A stretch of 64,000 nucleotides of DNA from Thermoplasmatales archaeon (GCA_014874365.1 JACWAH010000010.1:62001-126000), one strand, 5' to 3'; shown: positions 3,209-52,021, counted from the first letter of the stretch. Notes: generated by a model not told the origin, from the sequence alone. Numbers and translations are program-made.

Positions 3209-4726
3209 ATGGGAATTGTTGAGTGCGTTCCTAACTTTAGCGAAGGACGTGATGAAAAGATCATAGCTGCAATAAAGGACGCCATTACCTCAGTTGAAGG
3301 AATTTCAATACTGGACGTGGAAAGAAACGCTGATCATAACAGATCGGTGATATCTTTTGCAGGGGACTCTTCAGTTGTTCTTGAAGCGGCTTTCAGGGGT
3401 ATCAAGAAAGCCGGGGAACTCATAGATATGACCACCCATAAAGGCGAGCATCCAAGATTCGGGGCTGCTGACGTGATACCATTCATCCCGGTTACTGAAA
3501 CAATGGAAGAATGCATACGACTGGCAAATTTACTTGCGGAGAAAGTATCGTCAGAGCTTTCAATCCCGGTTTATTTATACGGCTATGCGGCGAAGACCCC
3601 GTGGCGGTCAAACCTTGAAAACATCAGATCGAAAACATTTCAATATGAGGAACTCAAGCAACATATCGCCGAAGAGAAATGGAATCCGGACCGGGGACCA
3701 AAAACCGTAGGTAAAGCCGGAGCTACGATAATCGGCGCGAGGAATTTCCTTGTTGCGTACAATGTCAATCTAAATACGAACAGGATTAAGGTTGCAAAAG
3801 CCATTGCCAGGAAAATCCGGGAAAAGGACGGTGGCCTGAAGAATGTAAAAGCACTCGGGTTCTTTTTGTCAGAGAGTGACACGGCCCAGGTGTCGATGAA
3901 TCTTGTTGATTTTCAGAAGACCCCCGTATATAAAGCATATGAAAACGTGAAACTTGAAGCTTCGAGATATGGCGTGTCTCCCAGGGAGAGCGAAATTGTC
4001 GGCCTGATTCCACTTAAGGCAGTCCTGGATACGGCCGCTTATTACTTGCAGATGGAAAGCATACCCGAAGACCAGATACTGGAGATCAAACTCTCGAAAT
4101 CACAAAAAGAGGACTCGCTGGGAGAATTCCTTTCAAGACTATCCTCCTCTTCACCCGCCCCCGGAGGCGGAGCTGCCAGCGCTTTGGTTGGGGCAATCTC
4201 CGCTGCGCTCTCGGGCATGGTATCTTCCTTGACCCATGGAAAGAAAGCATATGCCGCGGTCAGTGAGGAAATGGAAAAGATAATCGCTGAATCGCGTTCA
4301 TTAATGAATGAACTCACCTCCCTGATGAAACTCGACGAGGAGGCATTCAATGGCATTTCTGCAGTATGGAAACTTCCGAAGGACACCGATGAACAAAAAG
4401 AAGCGAGAAATGCCAAGTTACAGATTGCCCTGATTCATGCAATAGAAGTGCCAATGAGAATTGTAAAGAGTTGCGTGAAGATAATTGATCTTCAGAAAGA
4501 ACTGGTAGAAAAGGGAAACAAAAACGCAATAAGCGACGTGGCCTGTTCTGCAGAATTTTCACTGGCGGCTATCAGGGGGGCTTCCTCAAATGTCATTATC
4601 AACGCAAAGTCCCTGGATGACAGGAGGAAGGGAGAACAGTTCCTGGACGAAACCAAAGCCATAATAAAATATGCTGAAGGAAAAATAGAAGAAATAAGAA
4701 AAATAGTGGAAAGTAAAATTGCCTGA
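3209..4726 (+). CDS. Bifunctional glutamate formiminotransferase / formiminotetrahydrofolate cyclodeaminase
   Basis: Transfers the formimino group from formiminoglutamate to tetrahydrofolate, then deaminates it to methenyl-tetrahydrofolate; in other organisms this is the last step of histidine degradation and feeds one-carbon units. The first about 300 residues match the formiminotransferase domain (E-C-V-P-N-F-S-E-G near the start; H-K-G-E-H-P-R-F-G-A). The C-terminal about 180 residues match the cyclodeaminase domain with the glycine-rich P-A-P-G-G-G-A-A-S-A-L-V-G. The fusion (about 505 residues) has the same order as the animal FTCD enzyme. The ATG at 3209 is chosen because the protein match begins there; an AT-rich ACATATT box 25 bases upstream suits a leaderless transcript. 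A serine hydroxymethyltransferase gene elsewhere in the window also belongs to one-carbon metabolism. Confidence 0.92.
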   Translation: MGIVECVPNFSEGRDEKIIAAIKDAITSVEGISILDVERNADHNRSVISFAGDSSVVLEAAFRGIKKAGELIDMTTHKGEHPRFGAADVIPFIPVTETMEECIRLANLLAEKVSSELSIPVYLYGYAAKTPWRSNLENIRSKTFQYEELKQHIAEEKWNPDRGPKTVGKAGATIIGARNFLVAYNVNLNTNRIKVAKAIARKIREKDGGLKNVKALGFFLSESDTAQVSMNLVDFQKTPVYKAYENVKLEASRYGVSPRESEIVGLIPLKAVLDTAAYYLQMESIPEDQILEIKLSKSQKEDSLGEFLSRLSSSSPAPGGGAASALVGAISAALSGMVSSLTHGKKAYAAVSEEMEKIIAESRSLMNELTSLMKLDEEAFNGISAVWKLPKDTDEQKEARNAKLQIALIHAIEVPMRIVKSCVKIIDLQKELVEKGNKNAISDVACSAEFSLAAIRGASSNVIINAKSLDDRRKGEQFLDETKAIIKYAEGKIEEIRKIVESKIA

Positions 4727-6593: not shown

Positions 6594-7922
6594 TTGGACC
6601 CGGTAGACAGCAGATCTGGTGTGGAGACTATTTCCGGAAACAAATGGTTCACCGGTTACTTTTTTTCCAATCTTGCCTCCGGGATCATTTCGCCGCTAAT
6701 TCCTCTTTACGTTCTTCTCTACCTCCACATGTCAGTCTTCTACGTGGGCGTAGCCTCGGCTGTAATATCAGCGGCTTCTGTTCCATTCCTGATATTCTGG
6801 GGAAACTTATCCGATAAATTCGGCAGAAGGAAAATCTTCATCGTTTTTGGCTTTCTTGGAGGTGGAACTTCACTTTTTGGCATTGTGATGGCCACTAACA
6901 TCTGGACCTTCGTTGGAATTCTGGCACTTTTCCAGGTAGCGGTCATGGCCAGCGTGCCAGTATCTACAATGATAATAATAGAGAATTCTTCGAAGGAAAG
7001 CTGGCCAACGGTGATGTCAAGATTCAACATGGTTGCTGCAGCCGGAAACGTAACCGGGCTGGCAGCCGGTGCGCTATCAATCATCTGGATATCAGCGCAC
7101 ACGGCATTTCTAATTGACCTCTATCTGGTTGCTGCGGTGATATACATAATAGCAGGAGTTCTTGTGCAGATCATGATTCCCGAACCCGCCAGGAATTTGC
7201 CCCGTCACAGGCTCTCCGGCATTTATTCTATCCGACTGACAGAAAAATTGAGGTACTTCCCCAGCACAATGATTCATATAATTTCGCCGGGAACAAGGAA
7301 AGAAAGATCACTGCCAGTTGGCGTGTGGAGCTTCCTGATATCAGCCTCTGTTCTTATGTTTGCCTTCCAGATATTCTTTGTTCCGTTCCCAGCTTACATG
7401 ATAGATATCCAGAAGTCGTCTGATTTCATCATTTACATGATGTATCTGGGGAACGCTATTTTCGGAGCATTCACCTACGGTTTATCAGGTGCAGCAGTGA
7501 ATGAGTTTGGGCCGAGAAAAATACTTATTGCATCAGTGCTGGTCAGGGCAGTTATATTCGGAATTACATCAATTATCGCCTTCGAATACATACTCGGTAA
7601 CACAACGGTTCTCGCGCTTATCATTATGTACTCCGTCCTGGGTGGAATATGGAGCCTGATATCCATAAGCCAGCTTTCGATCCTTTCCAACGGGGTGAAT
7701 GCAAAAGTCAAGGGGAAGGCGCTTGGTTACTACAACTCGCTAACCGGCGTTGGACAAATAGTTGCTGCTGTTGCAGCGGGTTATCTTTCAATAACCGTTG
7801 GCTACGGCGCCACGTTCGGGTTTTCAGTTATATCTGTAATCGCGGCAGCTGCCTTCGTCATGTGGTCAATTTCTTTAATAACCGGGAAGAGAAAAGTCCC
7901 AGGAAATGTGGCAACGGCTTAG
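6594..7922 (+). CDS. MFS transporter
   Basis: A 442-residue membrane protein with about 12 hydrophobic segments and the major facilitator signature between helices 2 and 3 (G-N-L-S-D-K-F-G-R-R-K). A longer basic loop at about residues 195-240 separates the two six-helix halves. Substrate unknown; drug or sugar export/import are both possible. The TTG at 6594 is chosen as start because AGAAGGT lies eight bases upstream and an AT-rich TTAAATATT box at 6549-6557 could drive it; the ATG at 6562 is in another frame and stops after 14 codons. It converges on sepF with a four-base overlap. Confidence 0.85.
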   Translation: MDPVDSRSGVETISGNKWFTGYFFSNLASGIISPLIPLYVLLYLHMSVFYVGVASAVISAASVPFLIFWGNLSDKFGRRKIFIVFGFLGGGTSLFGIVMATNIWTFVGILALFQVAVMASVPVSTMIIIENSSKESWPTVMSRFNMVAAAGNVTGLAAGALSIIWISAHTAFLIDLYLVAAVIYIIAGVLVQIMIPEPARNLPRHRLSGIYSIRLTEKLRYFPSTMIHIISPGTRKERSLPVGVWSFLISASVLMFAFQIFFVPFPAYMIDIQKSSDFIIYMMYLGNAIFGAFTYGLSGAAVNEFGPRKILIASVLVRAVIFGITSIIAFEYILGNTTVLALIIMYSVLGGIWSLISISQLSILSNGVNAKVKGKALGYYNSLTGVGQIVAAVAAGYLSITVGYGATFGFSVISVIAAAAFVMWSISLITGKRKVPGNVATA

Positions 7923-8293
7923 AAAGACCCTCTTAATCTCTTTCTGTCTATCGTAATGCCTTTCGGCGTCAGGATAATGAATTCCTTTGACAGAGCCGCA
8001 ATGTCACCACTATAATCCTCTGCTGCTTCCTTCAGGCTGTTCCAGACTTTCTTCAATTCTATTTCGTTGGAGGAGATGGACTCACAGTTAACCAGAAGAA
8101 TGCTCCCGCTGGAGATGTAGTTCATCAGCATGAACACGTCCTGGTGATCGTTAATGTCAGCGACCTTAACTATGGAAGAAGCACCAGTGTCCGGTTCCGG
8201 CATCTTAAGCTTGTTCAGGTCTACAAACCTTCTGGGACCCTTTTGAGAATCCCTTCCTCTCCTAATCTGCCCCTTTTTCAGAAGCGGTGACAT
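7919..8293 (-). CDS. sepF: Cell division protein SepF (archaeal type)
   Basis: A 124-residue protein matching the SepF/DUF552 family, which in archaea tethers FtsZ to the membrane during division. The C-terminal about 90 residues contain the SepF core: V-V/K-V-A-D-I-N-D followed by an alpha/beta domain and a typical ending with F-I-I-L-T-P-K-G-I. The N terminus is basic (K-K-G-Q-I-R-R-G-R) rather than the usual amphipathic membrane helix, so its membrane contact may differ. A TATA box (AATATATAG on the minus strand, about 8314-8324) lies 27 bases before the ATG, giving a leaderless transcript. It is convergent with the MFS gene and follows the glycosyltransferase gene on the same strand, 49 bases away. 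Confidence 0.85.
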   Translation of the reverse strand: MSPLLKKGQIRRGRDSQKGPRRFVDLNKLKMPEPDTGASSIVKVADINDHQDVFMLMNYISSGSILLVNCESISSNEIELKKVWNSLKEAAEDYSGDIAALSKEFIILTPKGITIDRKRLRGSF

Positions 8294-8312
8294 ATAATCT
8301 CAAATGGTCAGG

Positions 8313-8325
8313 TGGCTATATATTT
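8313..8325 (-). promoter_or_regulatory. TATA box of sepF
   Basis: AAAATATATAGCC on the minus strand is centred 27 bases upstream of the sepF ATG at 8293. This is the spacing of an archaeal TATA box to a transcription start at the first base of the start codon. Confidence 0.6.
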
Positions 8326-8342
8326 TTTGGGAATGATGAAAA

Positions 8343-9002
8343 TCAGCCTGATACCCTTTTGATAAAGATGTGTGCCAGATTCTTGAAGCCATCGCGCCAC
8401 GTACGAAGTTTTGGTTTTGTTACCCTTACCCCGTACTTTATAGGCACTTCAACTACCAGTCCAAGCCTGAAAGCCTCGATCTTAAGGTCCTGGGAAAAAG
8501 ACATGCCGTTGCTCAGGTGTCTCATCTTCGGGTAGAGTTCAGACCGGAAAATCCACATACCGCTTTGCGAATCGATCATCCTGTAGCGGAACAACACTCT
8601 TATGAAGAGGTTAAGAACGCTGTTTCCAACAAAGTGAAGCATTGTGTAATTATTCTCGTTCCTGAGTGTCATCCTGTCGCATGAAATGAAATCCACTTCA
8701 TTGACTTCCAGCAGTCTTATTAGCGGCATCACTGCTGCTGCAGGGTATGTGGCATCACCGTCCAATCCCACATAAATGTCCCCTGTACAGTGCCTGAAGC
8801 CTGTCTTGAAAGCAACTCCATAACCTTTGGAAGGTTGATCTACCACCTTGGCTCCAAGGCTGGCCGCGACCTCCCTTGTCCTGTCGGTAGAATTGGTGTC
8901 AACAACGACTATCTCAACGTTATCAATTTTCTTTAACTCTGAGATAACAGCGCCGATCGTTTTTTCCTCGTTTATTGTCGGGATAACAACGCTTATCTTC
9001 AT
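8343..9002 (-). CDS. Family 2 glycosyltransferase (dolichyl-phosphate mannosyltransferase-like)
   Basis: A 219-residue GT2 (GT-A fold) enzyme that likely moves a sugar from a nucleotide sugar to a lipid phosphate such as dolichol phosphate. It starts directly with the fold: K-I-S-V-V-I-P-T-I-N-E-E-K-T-I, then the nucleotide-binding V-V-V-D-T-N-S-T-D, then the metal-binding D-G-D-A-T-Y-P (DxD). No transmembrane domain is evident, so it resembles the soluble DPM1/AglD catalytic part. Its product could serve N-glycosylation of surface proteins. The ATG at 9002 is 20 bases after a GGATATAG box. Confidence 0.85.
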   Translation of the reverse strand: MKISVVIPTINEEKTIGAVISELKKIDNVEIVVVDTNSTDRTREVAASLGAKVVDQPSKGYGVAFKTGFRHCTGDIYVGLDGDATYPAAAVMPLIRLLEVNEVDFISCDRMTLRNENNYTMLHFVGNSVLNLFIRVLFRYRMIDSQSGMWIFRSELYPKMRHLSNGMSFSQDLKIEAFRLGLVVEVPIKYGVRVTKPKLRTWRDGFKNLAHIFIKRVSG

Positions 9003-13108: not shown

Positions 13109-14551
13109 ATGTCCTTCGAAGACCTTCACGAGTACGTGGAGTATCTCTCAAAAAAGAACGACCTGATCATTGTAAATGATGAGGTAAACCCCGATCTCGA
13201 ACTGACACAGATACTCAGCGAAGAGGAACGTGTTGGAAAAGGAAGGGCTATTTTTTTCAAGAACGTCAAGGGAAAAGAGGTTCCTGCAATTGGCAACCTG
13301 TTCGCCACTAAAGAAAAAATGGAGGCGATACTTGGAGATACGGCATATAACATAGGCCAGAGGTTGAAATCCCTGCTGAGACTTCCAGACCCGTCTGAAT
13401 CCATGCTTTCAAGGGGCATTGAGATGCTCAGGGAGGCAGGAGGGGCAAGACCCAAACTTTCCGGTTCATTTGGCCTGGGAATCCAGGAAATGGAGAAGGT
13501 AGATCTTGGCAGATATCCCATTACGAGGACGTGGCCGGAAGACAAGGCTCCGTTCATAACTCTTCCAATGGTTATCACGAAGAATCCCGTTACCGGCGAC
13601 AAGAACATCGGGATGTACAGGATGCAGGTATACGATTCTGAAACCACAGGAATGCACTGGCACATACACAAGGACGGAGCAGGACACTTCGATGAGAAGA
13701 AAGCATCCGGAAGCAAGATGATGGAAGTGGCTGTTGTGCTTGGGGCAGACCCACTCACTATGTTTTCTGCGGTTGCTCCTCTCCCCGGTATGATTGATGA
13801 ATTTTCATTCAGCGGCCTCATCGCAAAAAAGAGGCTGGATATCGTGAAAGGGAGGAGTGTCGATCTTGAATATCCAAAGAATTTTGAAATAGTGCTTGAA
13901 GGTTACATAGACCCTTCCGAGACCAGGGTTGAAGGGCCATTTGGGGATCATACCGGATATTATTCTCTCGAAGAAGAATTCCCGGTATTTCACGTGAAGA
14001 AAATACTGGAGCGAAAAGGCAGGGTATATCCTACCACTATTGTCGGCCAGCTGTGGCACGAGGACGTGATAATCGGGAAAACGATTGAAAGGATGTTCCT
14101 GCCATTGATCCAGTCACAGGTGCCGGAGATTGTCGATATAAATACAATGGAAGAGGCTGTGTTCCACAACATGGTTGTGGTGTCCATAAAGAAAAGATAT
14201 CCGGGTCATGCAAAGAAGATCATGTTCGCTCTCTGGGGCATGGGGCAGATGATGTTTTCCAAAATTATTGTGGTTGTTGACAACGACATAAACATCCATG
14301 ACAGGAAACAGGTGATCTGGGCTATGACTACCAGAATTGATCCACAGCGTGACGTAGTGATAATTCCCGGAACCGTAACAGATACGCTTGACCATCCTGC
14401 AGGCTTATTGAATTATGGTTCCAAGATGGGAATCGACGCAACCCGTAAAGGCAAAAGTGAAGGATATAATAGGATATGGCCAGAAGTGCTCAAAATGGAC
14501 GAGCAGGTCGCAGAGGAGGTGAAGACTAAATGGGAAAAGATGGGGTTGTGA
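13109..14551 (+). CDS. ubiD: UbiD-family decarboxylase
   Basis: A 480-residue prenylated-flavin-dependent decarboxylase of the UbiD family, which removes the carboxylate from an aromatic or polyprenyl-aromatic acid. It matches the family along its full length, including the N-terminal domain, a central I-G-M-Y-R-M-Q segment with M-H-W-H-I-H-K-D-G, and a V-E-G-P-F-G-D-H-T-G-Y active-site segment with the conserved acidic residues. It overlaps the ubiA gene by 22 bases, so the two are almost certainly co-expressed. In archaea such pairs are usually assigned to menaquinone formation; the exact substrate is not determined. The start ATG at 13109 has GAGGGAAGG immediately upstream. A UbiX-type flavin prenyltransferase is not in the window. 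Confidence 0.9.
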   Translation: MSFEDLHEYVEYLSKKNDLIIVNDEVNPDLELTQILSEEERVGKGRAIFFKNVKGKEVPAIGNLFATKEKMEAILGDTAYNIGQRLKSLLRLPDPSESMLSRGIEMLREAGGARPKLSGSFGLGIQEMEKVDLGRYPITRTWPEDKAPFITLPMVITKNPVTGDKNIGMYRMQVYDSETTGMHWHIHKDGAGHFDEKKASGSKMMEVAVVLGADPLTMFSAVAPLPGMIDEFSFSGLIAKKRLDIVKGRSVDLEYPKNFEIVLEGYIDPSETRVEGPFGDHTGYYSLEEEFPVFHVKKILERKGRVYPTTIVGQLWHEDVIIGKTIERMFLPLIQSQVPEIVDINTMEEAVFHNMVVVSIKKRYPGHAKKIMFALWGMGQMMFSKIIVVVDNDINIHDRKQVIWAMTTRIDPQRDVVIIPGTVTDTLDHPAGLLNYGSKMGIDATRKGKSEGYNRIWPEVLKMDEQVAEEVKTKWEKMGL

Positions 14552-15393
14552 AAAAGGCAGGAGACGTTGCCGATTTCATAAGGCTTGAACATACCATTTT
14601 TGACCTCCCATTTGTATGGAGCGGCCTGGTCGTTGCTTCAATGGGAAGCTATGATCTTGCAAAATTCGTTTTCGTCACCATGGCGGCAATTTTTGCAAGG
14701 GCGACGGCGATGACCCTGAACAGGATCGAAGGCAGGAAGTACGACCTGATCAATCCAAGGAAGAAGAACTGGCAGCTGACATCGGGAAGATTCAGCGTGA
14801 GATTTGCCATATCGTTGGCCATCATTTTCGCGCTGCTGTTTGAATTCTGCGTCTACTTCATCAATACTCTTGTCCTGGAACTTTCACCTCTTGTACTGTT
14901 ATCATTTATTCTCGACCCTTTGCTGAAAAGATTTACATCAATGAGGCACTTTTACATGGGTTTCACAATTGGCGTTGGTGTCATGGCTGGGTACCTTTCC
15001 GTTATCCCTGCATTCCCTGTGTCTCCGTTGCCATATCTTATCCTCATTGCCTCTGCGCTCTGGATAGCCGGCTTTGACATGATCTACGTGATACCTGATG
15101 TTGAGACAGACAGGCAAAATGGCCTGAGGACCGTAATGACAGATTACGGCATCGAGAAAGGGCATGATATTTCGATTTTGACTCATGCCATATCTTTTCT
15201 CTCCTTCGTCGCTATCGCTTTTTACGTTCAGTCGTATCTTTATGACGCGGTCGTGGCGGTAATTGGAGTGCTGATGCTGCTGCAGCATGTGACCCTCAAC
15301 CCCGGAGATCTGAAGAGTATCAGGTTCTCATTCATAGGGGCAAATTCCTTTGTGGGAATAATATTCCTTGCGGCACTTGTTATATCATTTTGA
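14530..15393 (+). CDS. ubiA: UbiA-family prenyltransferase
   Basis: A 287-residue integral membrane prenyltransferase with about eight hydrophobic helices that attaches a polyprenyl chain to an aromatic ring, most likely in menaquinone synthesis given the overlapping ubiD. The second Asp-rich motif is intact (D-M-I-Y-V-I-P-D-V-E-T-D). The first motif, normally N-x-x-x-D-x-x-x-D, reads N64-R-I-E-G-R-K-Y-D72: the middle Asp is Gly68 with Glu67 beside it. The following N-P-R-K-K-N-W-Q-L-T-S-G matches the family. The start overlaps the ubiD end; a ribosome binding site (GCAGAGGAGGTGA) lies within ubiD. The gene converges with the next MFS gene, overlapping by nine bases. Confidence 0.88.
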   Translation: MGKDGVVKKAGDVADFIRLEHTIFDLPFVWSGLVVASMGSYDLAKFVFVTMAAIFARATAMTLNRIEGRKYDLINPRKKNWQLTSGRFSVRFAISLAIIFALLFEFCVYFINTLVLELSPLVLLSFILDPLLKRFTSMRHFYMGFTIGVGVMAGYLSVIPAFPVSPLPYLILIASALWIAGFDMIYVIPDVETDRQNGLRTVMTDYGIEKGHDISILTHAISFLSFVAIAFYVQSYLYDAVVAVIGVLMLLQHVTLNPGDLKSIRFSFIGANSFVGIIFLAALVISF

Positions 15394-44338: not shown

Positions 44339-44971
44339 CTATTGTAAAACTTCTTCCCCGTTTCTTTCCAGATAGAATAAAATTGCTTTCTTGGTTCCTC
44401 TTCGGATGGATTCCGAAAGAGACGAGGGTGAAACGCCAACGATTTTTGCCAGTTCGGTCAGGGACATCCTGTCGTCGCACTCGAAGTAGTTCTTTTCAAG
44501 TGCAACTTCTATGAACTTTTTCTCTTTCTCGGTCATCTGTTTGTGGAGCAGTGGATTTTCGCTGACAATTCTGTATTCGATTTCAGAATCCTTCAGGTGG
44601 GATTTCAATAATCTGAGGTCAGCTTTCGTAGGAACTACAATCCTGATCTGCAACATCTTAGTCCCGATGGTTGCGCTCCCAACAATCTCGACAAATGGTA
44701 ATCTGGAGAATAGTGCACAGGCTTTACAGCTACAGCTTTCTGCCCACACTTCTCCCTTCTTTGTGGATCTTGTTTTAATATACTGCGATGAAAGAACTGA
44801 TACTATGTCACATACATTCGCTGCCTTAATCGAATGGAGCGTGCGATCAGGCCTTACCGACAGGCGATCAATTGTACATTCGATTCCAGGGAGTGCGTTA
44901 ACTACCAGGCAATCGTCCCTGACTAATTCCAGAACCACTTCAGTCATAAATTTTGATGCCATCGGGATCAT
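44339..44971 (-). CDS. Bat-type HTH_10 transcriptional regulator with cysteine cluster
   Basis: A protein of about 210 residues. The C-terminal 50 residues form the bacterio-opsin activator-type helix-turn-helix (HTH_10: L-T-E-L-A-K-I-V-G-V-S-P-S-S-L-S-E-S-I-R-R). The N-terminal part is a sensor-like domain containing six Cys, three of them tight together (C80-S-C82-K-A-C85) plus C21, C32 and C54, which could bind a metal, an iron-sulfur cluster or react with sulfur species. The ATG at 44971 is chosen because a CGTTTTAAAC box lies about 25 bases upstream. It is divergent from dsrC with 140 bases between, which makes the dsr genes its likely target. Confidence 0.78.
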   Translation of the reverse strand: MIPMASKFMTEVVLELVRDDCLVVNALPGIECTIDRLSVRPDRTLHSIKAANVCDIVSVLSSQYIKTRSTKKGEVWAESCSCKACALFSRLPFVEIVGSATIGTKMLQIRIVVPTKADLRLLKSHLKDSEIEYRIVSENPLLHKQMTEKEKKFIEVALEKNYFECDDRMSLTELAKIVGVSPSSLSESIRRGTKKAILFYLERNGEEVLQ

Positions 44972-44988
44972 AAAAGAATTGTATGTAC

Positions 44989-44998
44989 GTTTAAAACG
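44989..44998 (-). promoter_or_regulatory. TATA box of the HTH_10 regulator
   Basis: CGTTTTAAAC on the minus strand is centred 22 bases from the ATG at 44971. It lies in the 140-base region shared with the divergent dsr promoter. Confidence 0.45.
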
Positions 44999-45083
44999 AC
45001 ATAACCTAACATCTAAACACAGTTCAATACTCTCAAGGAACAAATTGGCTCACAGGTGAGGTATCCTTCTTATGAGTGGTGTT

Positions 45084-45093
45084 AGTATATATT
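45084..45093 (+). promoter_or_regulatory. TATA box of the dsr operon
   Basis: AGTATATATT is centred 24 bases before the dsrC ATG at 45112, indicating a leaderless message from which the whole dsr cluster could be transcribed. Confidence 0.6.
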
Positions 45094-45111: not shown

Positions 45112-45462
45112 ATGGGCGATGAAGATAATGCTGGATTTGTAATGGTGAAAGATTCTAACGGCAATGACAAGAAAATAGCCGTCGACGAGGACGGTTTTCT
45201 GCTTAATCCTAAAGACTGGTGTCCGGGATTTGTAGACGCAGTAGCCAAACAGGAGGCAGTTGAAACCCTGACTGACGAGCACTGGAAAATCATCAATTAT
45301 CTAAGAGATTACTTTACAAAATTTGACAGCTGTCCTCCGATAAGGATGCTTGTTAAAAATACCGGAACAGAACTGAAGAAGATTTATCAACTATTTCCAA
45401 CAGGGCCGGCCAAGGGAGCCTGCAGACTGGCAGGGGCGCCTAAACCTACAGGATGCGTGTAA
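45112..45462 (+). CDS. dsrC: DsrC, sulfur-carrier partner of dissimilatory sulfite reductase
   Basis: A 116-residue DsrC/TusE-family protein. Its flexible C-terminal arm ends with C104-R-L-A-G-A-P-K-P-T-G-C115-V: two cysteines separated by ten residues, the arrangement that defines true DsrC, which carries sulfite-derived sulfur as a trisulfide between DsrAB and DsrMK. The TusE-type proteins of tRNA thiolation keep only the last Cys. The fold core (D-E-D-G-F-L-x-x-P-x-D-W and E-H-W-K-I-I-N-Y-L-R-D-Y-F) is intact. The start is set by the TATA box. First gene of the cluster. Confidence 0.93.
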   Translation: MGDEDNAGFVMVKDSNGNDKKIAVDEDGFLLNPKDWCPGFVDAVAKQEAVETLTDEHWKIINYLRDYFTKFDSCPPIRMLVKNTGTELKKIYQLFPTGPAKGACRLAGAPKPTGCV

Positions 45463-45464
45463 TC

Positions 45465-45764
45465 ATGATATATCTTACCTGCCCTGTCTGCGGATATGCA
45501 ATTGACATAATGCGAGACGAGGAAATAAATAATCCAGTAAAAGCGAAACGCCTGAAATACCTTACCACGAGAGATCAGGTATGCCCGAATTGCGTCAACA
45601 CAATCGGGAAATGCGAGAGGATTGAGGCTAAAGAAAATGAAATTCCGGTAATGAGGGTGGAAGTACACGAGGCGGAGAAAGACAAGTTCGTGGATTTCTG
45701 CAGAAAGAGCGGATACGCAGTCGGGACCGCTTATGCCCTAAATCACTTTAGAGAGGTGAAATAG
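45465..45764 (+). CDS. Small cysteine-rich protein of the dsr cluster, function unknown
   Basis: A 99-residue protein with two C-x-x-C pairs (C6-P-V-C9 and C40-P-N-C43) and further Cys50 and Cys79. The first two pairs resemble a zinc ribbon or rubredoxin-like metal site; a small alpha/beta segment follows (V-E-V-H-E-A-E-K-D-K-F). I recognise no named family and it does not look like DsrD (a winged-helix protein). It starts two bases after dsrC (an upstream in-frame ATG at 45453 is also possible) and its TAG stop shares one base with the dsrA GTG, so it is built into the operon. Confidence 0.72.
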   Translation: MIYLTCPVCGYAIDIMRDEEINNPVKAKRLKYLTTRDQVCPNCVNTIGKCERIEAKENEIPVMRVEVHEAEKDKFVDFCRKSGYAVGTAYALNHFREVK

Positions 45765-46942
45765 TGACGGAAGTACCTGAAGAGGTAAAAAAAGGAAGAG
45801 AGATTGTAAAGGAGATTGAAAGAGGAAGCTGGCCGAATTTCTTGAAGGAAGCTGAGAAGACCAGATATCCAGTTGATCTGTACGGGGCCTCGCTTTATCT
45901 TAAGAGGGACTTGTTCACAACTGGTGGATACGTGTCTGTCCCAGGTGCACCAACCGGTATCTTAATGAGAGTTACAAGCAGGCCCGATATTGGAGAAAGT
46001 ACCAATGTCGTAAGGGTCCTGCTGCCCTCGGGAAATTTCATAACTTCTGACATGATGGACAAGTTTTGTGATTTTGCCGATAAGTTCGGTGTAGGAATGG
46101 TGCATGCTCTAAGCACAGGCCAAAATGTCGAGATACCAGGAATTCCCAAGGACAGGATACGCGAGTTCGTAACCGAATTCAGGGATGCTGGACTCGAGAT
46201 CGGTTCGACCGGTGATGCATTCAGGAACACCACCACCTGTGTTGGCGCTACGCTATGCGAATACGCAAACATGGACACAATGGGAATGAGGGACGAATTT
46301 TACGACAAGTTCAACGACTACGCCAAGTATCCAACTTTCCCGCATAAAATGAAGCTGAAAATATCAGGTTGCCCGCTTGACTGTGCAAGAACCACCCAGA
46401 AAGCTGACATTGGAGTAGTAGGTTCATGGGTAGGGGCACCAATTGTGGATAACAAAATGATATCCTCCATGCCAAAAGAGAAAGTGGATGCAATAGTAAA
46501 CTCCTGCCCGACATTGGCCATATCAAGGGAAAATGGTGGAATCTCCATAAAGGGAGAAGACTGCATACAGTGTATGAAATGCCTCAGGAATGGGGAAGGA
46601 GCAATAAAACCTGGGGACAAGAAGACTTTCCTAATCTACGTGGGAGGAAAGTTGAGAGGAAAGAAGGGGCCGCTCACTTCAAAGCTTCTAATGAGGGTGG
46701 ATACCAAGGAAGAGGTAATGGAGAAACTGGAGAAAATAGTGGAAGCTTTCACGGACCACGCTGCAAGGAAGGAAAGACTCGGGGACCTGATTTTCAGGAT
46801 CGGAATGAAAGGATTGCTTGAACTTCTGGAAATGAAGCTACAGGCATTGAACGTCAAGGATCTGAGAACCAACGTATTCTATCCAGTAAGCGAGGAAGAA
46901 AGGCAGGAAATTGCGAACGACCTTGCAGGGAGGGGAAAGTAA
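45764..46942 (+). CDS. dsrA: Dissimilatory sulfite reductase alpha subunit
   Basis: A 392-residue subunit of the siroheme enzyme that reduces sulfite, delivering sulfur to DsrC. The siroheme/[4Fe-4S] ligand motif is complete: C159-x5-C165 (T-T-C-V-G-A-T-L-C) and C203-x3-C207 (S-G-C-P-L-D-C). The inserted ferredoxin domain has C248 and the C267-I-Q-C270-M-K-C273 cluster, in the DsrA order. The N-terminal half has the P-G-A-P-T-G-I...R-V-T-S-R-P pattern of sulfite/nitrite reductases. The start is GTG with GAGGTGA six bases upstream. It overlaps dsrB by one base. Slightly shorter than the bacterial subunits (about 420-440). Confidence 0.93.
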   Translation: MTEVPEEVKKGREIVKEIERGSWPNFLKEAEKTRYPVDLYGASLYLKRDLFTTGGYVSVPGAPTGILMRVTSRPDIGESTNVVRVLLPSGNFITSDMMDKFCDFADKFGVGMVHALSTGQNVEIPGIPKDRIREFVTEFRDAGLEIGSTGDAFRNTTTCVGATLCEYANMDTMGMRDEFYDKFNDYAKYPTFPHKMKLKISGCPLDCARTTQKADIGVVGSWVGAPIVDNKMISSMPKEKVDAIVNSCPTLAISRENGGISIKGEDCIQCMKCLRNGEGAIKPGDKKTFLIYVGGKLRGKKGPLTSKLLMRVDTKEEVMEKLEKIVEAFTDHAARKERLGDLIFRIGMKGLLELLEMKLQALNVKDLRTNVFYPVSEEERQEIANDLAGRGK

Positions 46943-48012
46943 TGACAGAACGACCCGAGGGACCACCAAGACCATACCTTAACTTTGTACCCGACTACGT
47001 GAAAGACTCCATAGGAAAATGGGTCACCCACAAGATGCAGGAAGGGGGAATAATTGAACACATTGACTCAAGAGGGAAGAAAGTATACACTGTCAAGGCA
47101 GCTTCTACCCCCAATGGCAGGTACAGTACAATTACAATGAGACAGATCACTGCTCTTGCCAGGAAATACGCTGGAGCCACAATGAGGTTTACCCAGGGAC
47201 TCAACATGGAGTTCATTGTTGGAAGCCTCGAAAAGGCAAAGGCATTGAAGCAGGAACTCAAAGAACTTGGATTTCCGGTCGGGGGATGGAAAGAACACCT
47301 CTGGAGTCTTACAAGCTGTGCAGGCTACTTCCACTGTGCGCTTGCCGCAACTGATGCACCTTCCGTAATCCAGAACATTGCGAACAGCCTTTCCAGGTAT
47401 TTCGACGAAGAGGAACTGCCCGCAAAACTAACCATTGCTGGATCCGGATGTCCTAGCTCTTGCGGAGGCAGCTTCCTGACGGACATTTCAATTAATGGGA
47501 TTCACACGGAGATACCGGTAATTACGGAAAACGTGAAAAACTGCGATCTTCAGGGTACGGCCTTTACCTGCCCGGTTGGCGCTATACAACTTAAGACCCT
47601 GCCGGATGGCGGGAAAACAATTGAGATCAGGGAAAGTCTTTGCATAGGTTGCGGGCTTTGTGTCGGGGCCTGCGGGGGAATTATCTTCCAGACTCCGGAA
47701 AAAACGGATGGACACGCGATTTCCATTGGCGGAAAGGCATCGGCTTCAAGATACGGCACCACGCTGGGAAGAATAGTAGTACCATTCATACCCAACGAGC
47801 CTCCCCACTACGAGAAGACAATAAGAGTAGTGGAAACAATTGTTGAAACCTGGAAAAAGGATGCAAAGAAAGGAGAAAGAATTGCAGACTGGGTTGACAG
47901 GATTGGCTGGGAGAAATTCTTTGAAAAGAGCGGCCTTCCATTCTATCCGCAGAGCATGGATTACCTTGATATCAGGGGTATAACAACCCTTAGAGACGGG
48001 AGCGGAAGATAG
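46942..48012 (+). CDS. dsrB: Dissimilatory sulfite reductase beta subunit
   Basis: The 356-residue beta subunit, which in known DsrAB carries the catalytic siroheme. The ligand motifs are C126-x5-C132 (T-S-C-A-G-Y-F-H-C) and C170-x3-C174 (S-G-C-P-S-S-C). The ferredoxin domain has C210 and C234-I-G-C237-G-L-C240-V-G-A-C244. The glycine/arginine substrate segment R-F-T-Q-G-L-N is present at about residues 82-88. Start ATG overlaps the dsrA stop. With dsrA it forms the alpha2beta2 reductase. Confidence 0.93.
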   Translation: MTERPEGPPRPYLNFVPDYVKDSIGKWVTHKMQEGGIIEHIDSRGKKVYTVKAASTPNGRYSTITMRQITALARKYAGATMRFTQGLNMEFIVGSLEKAKALKQELKELGFPVGGWKEHLWSLTSCAGYFHCALAATDAPSVIQNIANSLSRYFDEEELPAKLTIAGSGCPSSCGGSFLTDISINGIHTEIPVITENVKNCDLQGTAFTCPVGAIQLKTLPDGGKTIEIRESLCIGCGLCVGACGGIIFQTPEKTDGHAISIGGKASASRYGTTLGRIVVPFIPNEPPHYEKTIRVVETIVETWKKDAKKGERIADWVDRIGWEKFFEKSGLPFYPQSMDYLDIRGITTLRDGSGR

Positions 48013-48024
48013 GGAATACGGAAG

Positions 48025-48780
48025 GTGTTGCATTTGGACGCCCTGTCTATTTTAATTATTTCCTACGCCTATTTCGCGGTCATATTGCTGGTCACAGGCA
48101 GTATCTTCATGGTTGCCAGGTCCATATTCAAGAGCAAGGGCCCTAACGGCACTTACCTGGGATATCCTTATCTTTTTACCTATCCTGGCCAGGATACCCG
48201 CCTAAAAGCTTTCAGGAATATACTTGGAAGGATGTTCCTGTTTACCAGCGCAAAGGATGACCCTTTTTTGCGATATATCGGACTCGTATTCCACTGGAGT
48301 CTCTGGATCATAATCGCTGCACATGCCGATATTGTCCTGTACCCGTATTTTACTGCAGCCGGAATCTCCGAGAGCACACTTGAAGCGATCGGGGCTTATC
48401 TGGGCACATTCTTTGCAATACTTCTGGTAGGTTCCGGCCTGATCCTCTTTGGAAGGAGGGCTATGGACCCTTACATGAGAAAGATAAGTTATGCATCTGA
48501 CTATTTTGCAATCCTTCTCATAATTGCCATCGGCATCTCCGGAATCCTTATGCGCTTCTGGCTTCCAGCCAATTTCGCATACGCGCAGGTGAGCCCGTTT
48601 ATACTTTCACTTGCATCATTTGCCCCAATTAGTGCACCGGCTGCAGGGATCTTTGTCACTCACTTCATGCTAACACTCACTTTGTTTGTCTATTTCCCGC
48701 TCAGCAAACTGTTGCACCCTTTTGCTTTCTTGACCAATCCAACGCTCTATTCGATTTATCATCCTGGTGTTATAAAATGA
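48025..48780 (+). CDS. dsrM: DsrM-like membrane cytochrome b subunit
   Basis: A 251-residue integral membrane protein with five or six hydrophobic helices, matching the NarI/DsrM cytochrome b family. Candidate heme-ligand histidines are in F-H-W-S-L-W and A-A-H-A-D (helix region about residues 88-102) and in T-H-F-M-L...K-L-L-H-P-F-A near the C terminus, enough for two b hemes. It would take electrons from the quinol pool and pass them to DsrK, whose gene overlaps it by four bases. The GTG at 48025 follows GGGAA; a TTG at 48034 is an alternative. Confidence 0.88.
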   Translation: MLHLDALSILIISYAYFAVILLVTGSIFMVARSIFKSKGPNGTYLGYPYLFTYPGQDTRLKAFRNILGRMFLFTSAKDDPFLRYIGLVFHWSLWIIIAAHADIVLYPYFTAAGISESTLEAIGAYLGTFFAILLVGSGLILFGRRAMDPYMRKISYASDYFAILLIIAIGISGILMRFWLPANFAYAQVSPFILSLASFAPISAPAAGIFVTHFMLTLTLFVYFPLSKLLHPFAFLTNPTLYSIYHPGVIK

Positions 48781-50162
48781 AACCTAAGATCAGAGAAATA
48801 CTCCTTAAGAGTCCCAGCGGAAAGGCTGAGGAATGGCTTGCAAAACAAAAGAACATTGAATGGGCTAATGGTTTAAACCCAAGGCCAGCTAAAGATTCGC
48901 TTGTCGCTGAAATCGGTGAAACCAAGAATGAGAGTCCTGAACTGTTCGTCGAAAAGTTCAAGGGATTACGGCAAAGTAAAGCGTTCGTTGACTTCATGGA
49001 CAGTTGCACGCGATGCGGGATATGCATTGACAAATGCCACTTCTTTATTTCAACAGGCGATGTAAACAACAGTCCAGTTGGTAGGGCAAACCTTGTGAGG
49101 AAATTGTACAAGAAAGGGAACAGGCTTAAACCAAGTTCTGTAGACCTGAAAAAAATATTCTCCTACTACAACCAGTGTACTGAATGCAGGAGGTGTTCTG
49201 TTTTCTGTCCACAGGGAATCGACCAGGCTGAGATTACAAGGAATGTTCGTGAAGTCCTGACTGAAATGGGAATGATTCCGGAATACGTTGCTGCAACGCT
49301 TTCACAGGTTTACAAAACCGGAAACAACATGGGGCTGAATCCCAAGGCGATTGCTTCTGCTGTGGAGTTTGTAAGGGATGAAATGACGGAAGAAACGGGG
49401 AAGGAGATCGACATTCCTCTTGACAGGCCCAAGGCGGATTTCCTTTTCATACCCTCCTCGGCAGATATTATGGTCAACAACGACACGCTCAAAGGATACG
49501 CCAAAGTAATGTATGCGCTGAAGAAAGACTGGACAATATCATCAGCAACTTCCGAAGCGGCAAACTTCGGGACATTTGCAAACGAAAGAATCCTCATGGA
49601 ATTCGGCGATAAAGTGGTAGACGAGGCCGAAAAGAAAGGGGTGAAGGAAGTTGTCTGGGGAGAATGCGGACATGGCTGGAGAACGGCTAACAACTATGTC
49701 AGGTACAGGCTTGCGGAAAAAGGAATTTCTCTTCAACATGTCCATCAGGTAACTTCAAAGGCTATTGAAAGGGGCCAGATCACAGTTGACAAGAACAAGA
49801 ATGACGATCTATTCAACTATCATGATCCATGCAACCTGGCAAGAGGAGGCAATCTGGTAAACGAGCCCAGAAAAATACTCTCAGCAGTGGTAAGGGAAAC
49901 GGTCGAAGCTGAATTCACCAAAGACAAGACTTTCTGCTGCGGTGCAGGAGGAGGTCTCCTCGCTGATGAAAAGGACTGGAATGAATCCAGGGCATGGGCT
50001 GGCTGGCCAGCAGTTTACTATTCATGGAAAACAGGAGCACACACAATGGTGTCTCCCTGTGCAATAGACAAAGCACAGTTTCCCTACGTTATAGGATACC
50101 ACAAGGTTGACATGCAGATGAAAGGGCTGATGGATCTTGTGGGATTTGCAATAGAGGTGTAA
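48777..50162 (+). CDS. dsrK: DsrK-like iron-sulfur subunit (HdrD family)
   Basis: A 461-residue protein related to the catalytic subunit of heterodisulfide reductase. Two [4Fe-4S] ferredoxin motifs are present: C77-T-R-C-G-I-C-I-D-K-C87 and C134-T-E-C-R-R-C-S-V-F-C144. Two CCG-type domains follow, with W-G-E-C-G-H-G-W (about residue 300), H-D-P-C-N-L-A-R-G (about 360) and F-C-C-G-A-G-G-G (about 393), which bind the unusual noncubane cluster in HdrB/HdrD. It should reduce the DsrC trisulfide using electrons from DsrM. Operon position, directly downstream of dsrM, supports this. Confidence 0.9.
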   Translation: MKPKIREILLKSPSGKAEEWLAKQKNIEWANGLNPRPAKDSLVAEIGETKNESPELFVEKFKGLRQSKAFVDFMDSCTRCGICIDKCHFFISTGDVNNSPVGRANLVRKLYKKGNRLKPSSVDLKKIFSYYNQCTECRRCSVFCPQGIDQAEITRNVREVLTEMGMIPEYVAATLSQVYKTGNNMGLNPKAIASAVEFVRDEMTEETGKEIDIPLDRPKADFLFIPSSADIMVNNDTLKGYAKVMYALKKDWTISSATSEAANFGTFANERILMEFGDKVVDEAEKKGVKEVVWGECGHGWRTANNYVRYRLAEKGISLQHVHQVTSKAIERGQITVDKNKNDDLFNYHDPCNLARGGNLVNEPRKILSAVVRETVEAEFTKDKTFCCGAGGGLLADEKDWNESRAWAGWPAVYYSWKTGAHTMVSPCAIDKAQFPYVIGYHKVDMQMKGLMDLVGFAIEV

Positions 50163-50164
50163 AA

Positions 50165-50542
50165 GTGAAAGTTGGAATGATATTGGGAACAAATGAACTC
50201 TCGAGTATTATGTTTGCGTCAATAGAGGCAGGAATGAGAACGTCCATGGACGATTCTGTAATCATGTTCGTTACCATGGATGGAGTCAGGGCTTTTCTGA
50301 AGAATTCAGAAATCAGCCAGACTACAAAGACTTCAGCAATGATAGCAAAGCATGACCCTGATTTCAGGAAGTATCTCAGGGAAGGAAAAGAAAGCGGGTT
50401 GCTCAAGATTTATGTGTGCTATTACGCGGCCGAAATCTACGATGTGAACAAGAAGGACCTTGACGAACTTGTGGATGACATCTGGGGCATTACAAAGTTT
50501 TCAATAGAAACTGAAGACGCCCAGATCATTCCAATATGGTAG
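50165..50542 (+). CDS. dsrE: DsrE-family sulfurtransferase-like protein
   Basis: A 125-residue protein of the DsrE/F-like fold. A conserved-type cysteine, C85, lies in K-I-Y-V-C-Y-Y-A-A-E, the position where DsrE carries persulfide. The start (K-V-G-M-I-L-G-T-N-E-L) and overall pattern fit the family, and it comes two bases after dsrK. In sulfur oxidisers DsrE works as a DsrEFH hexamer; here only one member is found, so a role as a lone persulfide carrier is likely but unproven. GTG start. Confidence 0.8.
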   Translation: MKVGMILGTNELSSIMFASIEAGMRTSMDDSVIMFVTMDGVRAFLKNSEISQTTKTSAMIAKHDPDFRKYLREGKESGLLKIYVCYYAAEIYDVNKKDLDELVDDIWGITKFSIETEDAQIIPIW

Positions 50543-50557
50543 TGACAGGTGAGCTAG

Positions 50558-51322
50558 ATGAGCGGAATCGTATATTTTGTTGGTTCTGGGCCAGGAGACC
50601 CAGGTTATCTTACAATTAAAGCATTGAAACTGCTAAGATCTTCGGATCTGGTAATTTATGACAGTCTTGTGACAAGGGAGATAATTAGGAAAATACCTAA
50701 CAGCGTCCACAGGGTTGCCGTCAGGATGAGTCCTCATTCGAAAGGAATGAAAATGAAAGAGTTGACTGAACTGATGGTGAGGCATGCACTTGGGGGCAAG
50801 ATCATTGTAAGGTTGAAGAGTGGAGACCCGCTCCTGTTCGGAAGAACCTGGGAAGAGATTGAACCTTTAGAAGAGGCAGGAATAAAATATGAAATAGTTC
50901 CAGGAGTATCTTCTGCATTTGCATCGGCGGCACTATCAAAGACCCCGTTGACAGATCGCAGGTTTTCTTCATCAGTTGCCATTGTCACCGGCCATGAAGC
51001 AAACAATAAGCTTTCTACAAGCGTGAACTGGGGTCTTCTGGCACATTCTGTTGATACCCTTATAATCCTGATGGGTGCTTCGACTATTGCTGATTACAGT
51101 GAGAAACTAATCGAGGCTGGAGTAGATGGGTCTGCTACAGTTACCCTTATTTTCAATGCTTCACGCGAAGACCAGAAAATGATCAGGACTACGCTGGCAA
51201 GAGTCTCCGGCGGGCTGGCAATGAACTTCGGAGATCTCTGCACGGTGATCATAAATCTGCGCAGTGAATCAACCAACGATCATGAAAAGGTCCTGGACTT
51301 GATGCCGCAACAGGCCGCCTGA
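50558..51322 (+). CDS. cobA: Uroporphyrinogen-III C-methyltransferase
   Basis: A 254-residue S-adenosylmethionine-dependent enzyme that adds two methyl groups to uroporphyrinogen III to give precorrin-2, the first committed step to siroheme. The family motifs are intact: V-G-S-G-P-G-D-P-G-Y-L-T at the N terminus and V-R-L-K-S-G-D-P-L-L-F-G at about residues 87-98. ATG start with a GGTGAG site. Placed directly downstream of dsr genes, it supplies the siroheme they need. Confidence 0.93.
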   Translation: MSGIVYFVGSGPGDPGYLTIKALKLLRSSDLVIYDSLVTREIIRKIPNSVHRVAVRMSPHSKGMKMKELTELMVRHALGGKIIVRLKSGDPLLFGRTWEEIEPLEEAGIKYEIVPGVSSAFASAALSKTPLTDRRFSSSVAIVTGHEANNKLSTSVNWGLLAHSVDTLIILMGASTIADYSEKLIEAGVDGSATVTLIFNASREDQKMIRTTLARVSGGLAMNFGDLCTVIINLRSESTNDHEKVLDLMPQQAA

Positions 51323-51397
51323 AAATATATATCTCGGGTAGGGAAGTATGTCCCAAAGCATTGAAAGGAAAGCAGGCATTAGGATCAGGAGGATATT

Positions 51398-52021
51398 ATG
51401 GACTTTGTCCCGGTTATGCTGAACGTCTCTGACAGGAAAATAATAGTTATTGGCGGAGGAGAAGCAGCATACAAGAAAGTAAGGAACCTGGCTGAGCACT
51501 GCAGCAACATTACTATTATCGCTTCTGAATTTCAGGAAAGCTTTTCCGATTTTAACGCGGAGAAGGTGAAGATGCATATCACCAATGTAAACCAACTTGA
51601 AAGCTACCTGAAAGGTGATGTAATCGTCATAATAGCGACCGACGACCAGACGTTAAACACAGATTTGTCAGTTATGTGCAACAAACTTGGAATAATGTAC
51701 AACAGGATAGACGATAACACCAGCCCATTCATTTTTCCCGCCTCATTCGAATTGGACGGCATCATAGTATCAGTCTCAACCCTTGGAAAATCCCCTTCTT
51801 TTGCGAGGTATCTCAAGGAAAGATTGAAAGACAATGTAAGGGTATACTCTGGCGCACTGCCCGTTCTCCAAAGACTACGGAAAGAGACAAGGATACAGGA
51901 TTTCCACAAGCGCTCTAAATACTTCTGGGATTTGCTGCAGAACGACGATTTCTGGGAAAGGATCAATTCCGGTAAGTTCGACGACGCTTTTGATTTGGGG
52001 CTAAGGTTATCTAAGGAATAA
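51398..52021 (+). CDS. sirC: Precorrin-2 dehydrogenase / sirohydrochlorin ferrochelatase-type protein
   Basis: A 207-residue protein of the Met8p/CysG N-terminal type. It has an NAD-binding Rossmann motif (V-I-G-G-G-E-A-A-Y-K-K) and the family's S-T-L-G-K-S-P-S-F-A-R and L-K-E-R-L segment. It oxidises precorrin-2 to sirohydrochlorin; Fe insertion may be done by the same protein, as in Met8p, or by another. ATG with AGGAGG eight bases upstream. Last gene of the sulfite reductase cluster. Confidence 0.88.
   Translation: MDFVPVMLNVSDRKIIVIGGGEAAYKKVRNLAEHCSNITIIASEFQESFSDFNAEKVKMHITNVNQLESYLKGDVIVIIATDDQTLNTDLSVMCNKLGIMYNRIDDNTSPFIFPASFELDGIIVSVSTLGKSPSFARYLKERLKDNVRVYSGALPVLQRLRKETRIQDFHKRSKYFWDLLQNDDFWERINSGKFDDAFDLGLRLSKE

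Follow-up and report, generated by a model that had tools for sequence, protein, structure and literature searches.

A conserved dissimilatory sulfite reductase island with a clade-restricted CxxC protein in a Thermoplasmatales archaeon

The dissimilatory sulfite reductase (dsr) island described here occupies positions 45112-52021 of the window, that is, the entire stretch of 64,000 nucleotides of Thermoplasmatales archaeon DNA that was analyzed. An ORF check of the window recovered nine plus-strand genes, overlapping or abutting, precisely where the initial annotation had placed them. Families were assigned from Pfam and NCBIfam profile scores compared with the respective cut-offs, and the genes, together with the divergent neighbor upstream, are as follows:

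44339-45043, minus strand: HTH_10-domain regulator (Pfam HTH_10), divergent from dsrC
45112-45462, plus strand: dsrC (Pfam DsrC, TIGR03342; both C-terminal arm cysteines; best PDB match 1ji8)
45453-45764, plus strand: small CxxC...CxxC...C protein, no family assigned (five invariant cysteines across six homologues)
45764-46942, plus strand: dsrA, dissimilatory sulfite reductase alpha (TIGR02064, 252 bits; CX5C..CX3C; tree; PDB 3mm5_A)
46942-48012, plus strand: dsrB, dissimilatory sulfite reductase beta (TIGR02066, 321 bits; CX5C..CX3C; PDB 3mm5_B)
48025-48780, plus strand: dsrM, NarI-like membrane subunit (Pfam Nitrate_red_gam, NF038037; alignment)
48777-50162, plus strand: dsrK, DsrC-trisulfide reductase subunit (NF045796, 330 bits; Pfam Fer4_8, CCG; alignment)
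50165-50542, plus strand: DsrE-like small protein (Pfam DsrE; alignment with L022, L023 and L034)
50558-51322, plus strand: cobA/SUMT, uroporphyrinogen-III C-methyltransferase (TIGR01469, 225 bits, above cut-off)
51398-52021, plus strand: met8-like precorrin-2 dehydrogenase of the siroheme synthase N-terminal type (TIGR01470, 94 bits, above cut-off)

The dsrC gene starts with an ATG at 45112, and overlaps join dsrC to the CxxC gene (10 nt), the CxxC gene to dsrA (1 nt), dsrA to dsrB (1 nt) and dsrM to dsrK (4 nt), with gaps of 2-75 nt at the remaining junctions. DsrC (124 bits), the DsrE/F-like protein (Pfam, 24.7), CobA and Met8/CysG-N all score above their cut-offs; the DsrM-like protein (78 bits) and DsrK score below those of NCBIfam. 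DsrA and DsrB each find their own family as the best match, at scores under the equivalog cut-offs of 393 and 342 bits, respectively. Identification of DsrA as AsrC (TIGR02912, 70 bits against a cut-off of 324) or CysI (TIGR02041, 38 against 757) was rejected, and because these scores are far lower, the shortfall of DsrA and DsrB reflects divergence rather than membership in a different family.

The residues expected of a working enzyme are in place. The siroheme/[4Fe-4S] cysteine motifs CX5C...CX3C are intact in both DsrA and DsrB, and the alignment contains both DsrC arm cysteines, C104 and C115, all as initially claimed. In DsrM, four histidines, probable haem b ligands judging from the alignment, are kept across both archaeal island types (see below), and DsrK retains two [4Fe-4S] motifs and the CCG domain. 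The DsrE-like protein carries a conserved cysteine in the motif YVCYYA when aligned with its counterparts from L022, L023 and L034, and a role in sulfur transfer is probable. Families and motifs thus support the proposal that this is a true dissimilatory DsrABCMK operon, equipped with genes for siroheme synthesis as well, one that can be expected to function. The island includes MK without JOP, no DsrJOP genes being found within it; DsrL and the DsrEFH trio are likewise absent from the island, where a single DsrE-like gene is present, and no DsrN siroheme amidase was recognized among the window ORFs inspected. The divergent HTH_10 regulator is a candidate regulator of the island, a role that we infer. 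Its divergent placement is repeated in L022 and L023; the cysteines of its CSCKxC motif are kept in the window and L022, and only in part in L023.

The DsrABC proteins of Archaeoglobus fulgidus (3mm5, 1ji8) belong to the same enzyme family, and the DsrA CX5C..CX3C motif and the DsrC arms align with those of the window, although identity is only 28% for DsrA and 35% for DsrB. The two also differ in DsrB: the A. fulgidus protein has CCX3C, with the first cysteine missing, whereas the window protein keeps CX5C..CX3C, as does every other archaeal DsrB fetched for comparison. The CX5C..CX3C pattern is missing from all four DsrB sequences of solved structure that were compared (one from Archaeoglobus, three from bacteria), where CCX3C takes its place.

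In a tree of concatenated DsrAB, built from a small set that comprised no oxidative bacterial references and in which the root and the order of deep branches are not settled, the window groups with L022, L023, L025, L027 and L032, all of them Thermoplasmata, in a deep group. Identity to the window is 61-84% inside this group and 27-39% to all other sequences. The group lies apart from a second Thermoplasmata type together with Thermoproteales, as well as from the A. fulgidus/Desulfovibrio group, and the window does not join assimilatory or Asr enzymes, a placement that the initial annotation had named as one that would refute it. Among 390 genomes evenly drawn from the phylum, 10 encode dsrB, and these fall into two island types, five with the window's type and five with the second (L024, L026, L028-L030); the latter type clusters with sequences from Thermoproteales. 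A contig scan of genomes returned ten loci, seven of which were Dsr relatives.

The island recurs in relatives. In a genus-mate (G314, the contig of Thermoplasmata archaeon YP2.bin70, L022/L031), the nine genes occur in identical order, preceded, as in the window, by a DUF981 membrane protein and the HTH_10 regulator, and followed by a GPR1/FUN34/YaaH transporter and a B12-binding radical SAM protein. A member of the same family (L023) keeps the nine genes in order along with the regulator and the transporter, and the core dsrC-CxxC-dsrA-dsrB-dsrM-dsrK is found also in more distant relatives at the level of the order (L025) and the class (L027), and in the isolate ARK-15 (L032). The GC content is 46% in the island and 44-45% in the flanks. 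Misassembly, a concern raised at the outset, and contamination were rejected on the strength of the matching island and flanks in the genus-mate and of the GC values. Because both flanks are common to the two genomes, the island is neither misassembled nor a visibly mobile cassette; synteny and GC speak against recent transfer into the host genus, and the suggestion that the island is suited to horizontal transfer finds no support.

The gene between dsrC and dsrA presents another facet of this island. Its homologues suggest that it starts at the methionine of MIY, at 45465, and the six sequences have 29 invariant positions, including C6, C9, C40, C43 and C50 (MIY numbering). The protein is encoded in five of the 390 genomes, exactly those with the window's island type, and in all five the gene lies between dsrC and dsrA. 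No significant match was found in Pfam, NCBIfam or the PDB, and an AlphaFold model made from the six sequences (pLDDT 82.6) found no PDB match better than an E value of 0.9. What is new here is a CxxC protein that is found only with this island type and for which no match to a known family or fold was obtained. As a working idea, it is probably a small protein that binds metal and partners either DsrAB or DsrC. Several weak hints might point to a rubredoxin-like electron carrier, namely, a best RUBY_RBDX match at an E value of 0.056, the spacing C6/C9/C40/C43 compared with C6/C9/C39/C42 in a rubredoxin sequence, and an hhalign probability of 62 against three rubredoxins, where two control CPxC proteins reached 2.7 and 13.

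The initial annotation considered a dsr island unfamiliar for Thermoplasmatales, and this claim of novelty falls because published work already describes DsrAB from Thermoplasmatota, Thermoplasmataceae and acid-mine lineages among them (PMC12948486, PMC9326234, PMC7174415, PMC10591310). The island is a real trait, already recognized in such archaea. Colman 2020 (PMC7174415) described sulfite-reducing hot-spring Thermoplasmatota lineages with DsrAB, and enrichments with related Thermoplasmatota (DsrABC, DsrMK) produced sulfide from sulfite, not from sulfate (PMC7174415). These YNP-TEG Diaforarchaea resemble the window in having DsrABC and DsrMK, and their use of sulfite rather than sulfate is backed by the enrichments; by description, however, their genomes lack sat, aprAB and Sqr, whereas the present host encodes sat-aprAB and SQR-like proteins. 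Diao 2023 (PMC10591310) reported DsrAB in the phylum, and Tang 2026 (PMC12948486) delineated two Thermoplasmatota DsrAB clades, including Thermoplasmataceae and ARK-15. The latter clades, 1 and 5 of the RA (reductive archaeal) type, are like the window in phylum, in deep archaeal DsrAB and in the minimal DsrABC-MK set, and ARK-15, named among these lineages, corresponds by record to the isolate that carries the window's island type. However, the core set in that work includes DsrN, which was not recognized in the window, and its main text does not mention Sat and AprA, both of which the host genome has. A parallel in the latter respect is EUR_06 from the acidic pit lake Cueva de la Mora (Ayala-Munoz 2022, PMC9326234), a Thermoplasmatales MAG with dsrAB and aprAB for which no Qmo is reported, as in our host; in that study, dsrMK is reported for bacterial MAGs only, the archaeal EUR_06 genes are described as not expressed, and the passages considered do not discuss the CxxC protein.

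The rest of the host genome, about 96% complete and searched for named families, changes the picture; at this completeness, single absences carry some risk. The statement that sat and apr genes are missing is correct for the window and incorrect for the genome: a profile search located an intact sat-aprA-aprB cluster on a different contig (C13), with all three genes above the NCBI cut-offs (aprA 930 bits, aprB 146 bits) and with AprA aligning over its full length with that of A. fulgidus. A DUF6955 gene comes after the cluster and likewise follows sat in relatives, and two TauE/SafE genes lie nearby on the same contig. Contig C10 carries another sat copy, disrupted by frame changes and stops. 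QmoA, the usual source of electrons for AprAB and the remaining target of the search that had been advised, was not found in the host genome or in five genomes of the same family (query, the L025 copy; E 1e-8), and qmoC candidates score no more than 25 bits, the cut-off being 300. The host also encodes two terminal oxidases, one haem-copper and one bd, and three sulfide:quinone-oxidoreductase (SQR)-like proteins. The envisaged use of H2 as a donor finds no backing, given that no [NiFe] hydrogenase was detected in the host genome at the threshold used, yet the two oxidases were.

Taken together, the genomic data make it fairly likely that the island is a self-contained archaeal module for sulfite respiration of the reductive type. 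CobA and Met8 would supply siroheme; DsrAB would catalyze the reduction of sulfite, with partly reduced sulfur passed to DsrC as a trisulfide; membrane DsrMK would re-reduce the trisulfide with menaquinol, so that sulfide is released and energy conserved; and the DsrE-like protein would probably handle sulfane sulfur. Reduction of the DsrC trisulfide by DsrMK at the expense of menaquinol has been described (PMC7174415, PMC10591310). The reductive direction is suggested by the lineage, since archaeal DsrAB is regarded as reductive (PMC10591310), and by an island that has neither DsrL nor DsrEFH. The sulfide formed from sulfite, and not from sulfate, in the enrichments of PMC7174415 and the failure to find QmoA in the host and five genomes of its family also favor the reading as sulfite respiration. 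The best overall reading is a facultative aerobe that respires sulfite with menaquinol as donor and under anoxia would likely use sulfite or sulfite derived from thiosulfate, with sulfate as at most a putative substrate. Counted against this reading are the lack of a recognized DsrN in the window and the oxidases, the SQR-like proteins and the location of sat-aprAB by TauE/SafE genes, which would suit sulfur oxidation as well.

Because Sat-AprAB is encoded, full sulfate reduction without Qmo has to be considered, with Sat-AprAB producing sulfite and an unrecognized donor, such as DsrMK, ferredoxin or a quinol-linked protein, feeding AprAB. The intact, clustered genes scoring above their cut-offs are compatible with this scenario, and so is the distribution of AprA, which occurs in 18 of the 390 genomes, including nine of the 10 with dsrB compared with nine of the 380 others. 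Furthermore, a relative from the same order (G113) has qmoA, an adjoining second QmoA/HdrA-like gene and qmoC, above cut-off, next to sat-aprAB and an island of the window's type, so that this type exists both with Qmo and, in the host family, without it. However, AprA of this relative groups with A. fulgidus, whereas the host AprA belongs with other Thermoplasmata in a different clade, not the one linked to Qmo. Sulfate use has been tied to Qmo, and there are sulfite-reducing archaea that have canonical Sat/AprAB and yet cannot use sulfate (Neukirchen 2023, PMC10504309); given, in addition, the results for QmoA and qmoC, we consider this route unlikely. The early suspicion that sulfate is not the substrate, therefore, is plausible, since QmoA was not found, even though the reasoning from missing sat and apr genes fails. 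We regard as quite unlikely the compound proposal that this Thermoplasmata lineage respires sulfate via Sat-AprAB-DsrABCMK without Qmo, with an unrecognized donor for AprAB, and that the CxxC protein is a new clade-specific metalloprotein serving DsrAB by shuttling electrons or sulfur between it and DsrC.

An oxidative run of the same machinery in an aerobic acidophile is a further alternative, kept in contention by the oxidases and the SQR-like proteins: SQR would yield sulfane sulfur, to be passed via DsrE and DsrC to DsrAB, AprAB-Sat would turn sulfite into sulfate, and TauE would export sulfite. The DsrE-like protein, the TauE/SafE pair and sat-aprAB could all be accommodated, but the tree suggests that DsrAB is of an archaeal lineage regarded as reductive (PMC10591310), the island has neither DsrL nor the DsrEFH trio, and no AprM-like gene adjoins the host aprB, unlike in G054 and G330; on balance, this seems quite unlikely. 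Sulfite detoxification or assimilation instead of respiration, which TauE/SafE and Sat-AprAB could serve and for which early AprAB roles of that kind have been proposed (PMC10504309), is very improbable given that membrane DsrMK and a DsrC with a two-cysteine arm, encoded in the operon, fit energy conservation and not a soluble assimilatory system.

The island adds a well-assembled example to a deep archaeal branch of DsrAB, a branch that figures in debates on the origin of sulfite respiration, and here its host encodes oxygen reductases as well. Since the genes for sulfate activation are located on a different contig, the case illustrates how a pathway may be misjudged by a reading confined to the window. 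Two questions become amenable to experiment: how electrons are fed to DsrAB, the clade-restricted CxxC neighbor now being a specific candidate, and which role AprAB has in archaea without Qmo.

In the genome of this archaeon and in several relatives, the gene immediately 3' of sat encodes a DUF6955 protein:

L005 (own genome) 8182-8508, DUF6955 gene after sat
L025 (same-order relative) 3953-4297, DUF6955 gene after sat
L070 (relative) 7518-7832, DUF6955 gene after sat
L071 (relative) 8413-8724, DUF6955 gene after sat

The archaeon's other sat copy, on contig C10 (L006 10231-11739), is interrupted by stop codons and changes of reading frame; it is accompanied by a fragment of a DUF6955-like gene, the kind of gene that elsewhere comes after sat. 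Near a cluster of sat, TauE and aprAB, a Thermoproteales genome (L034) has dsrAB twice:

L034 8724-11071, dsrAB copy
L034 14881-17081, dsrAB copy

Directly 5' of aprB, two relatives, G054 and G330, encode a protein of about 255 aa that is similar to QmoC's membrane part alone and is possibly an AprM-like partner:

L075 1410-2180, QmoC-membrane-part-like protein
L073 7842-8606, QmoC-membrane-part-like protein

The AT-rich TTAGTATATATT at window positions 45082-45093, some 20-30 nt 5' of the dsrC start, might serve a leaderless transcript as its archaeal TATA box. The adjacent ubiD and ubiA genes (window 13109-15393) are consistent with quinone synthesis by the host.
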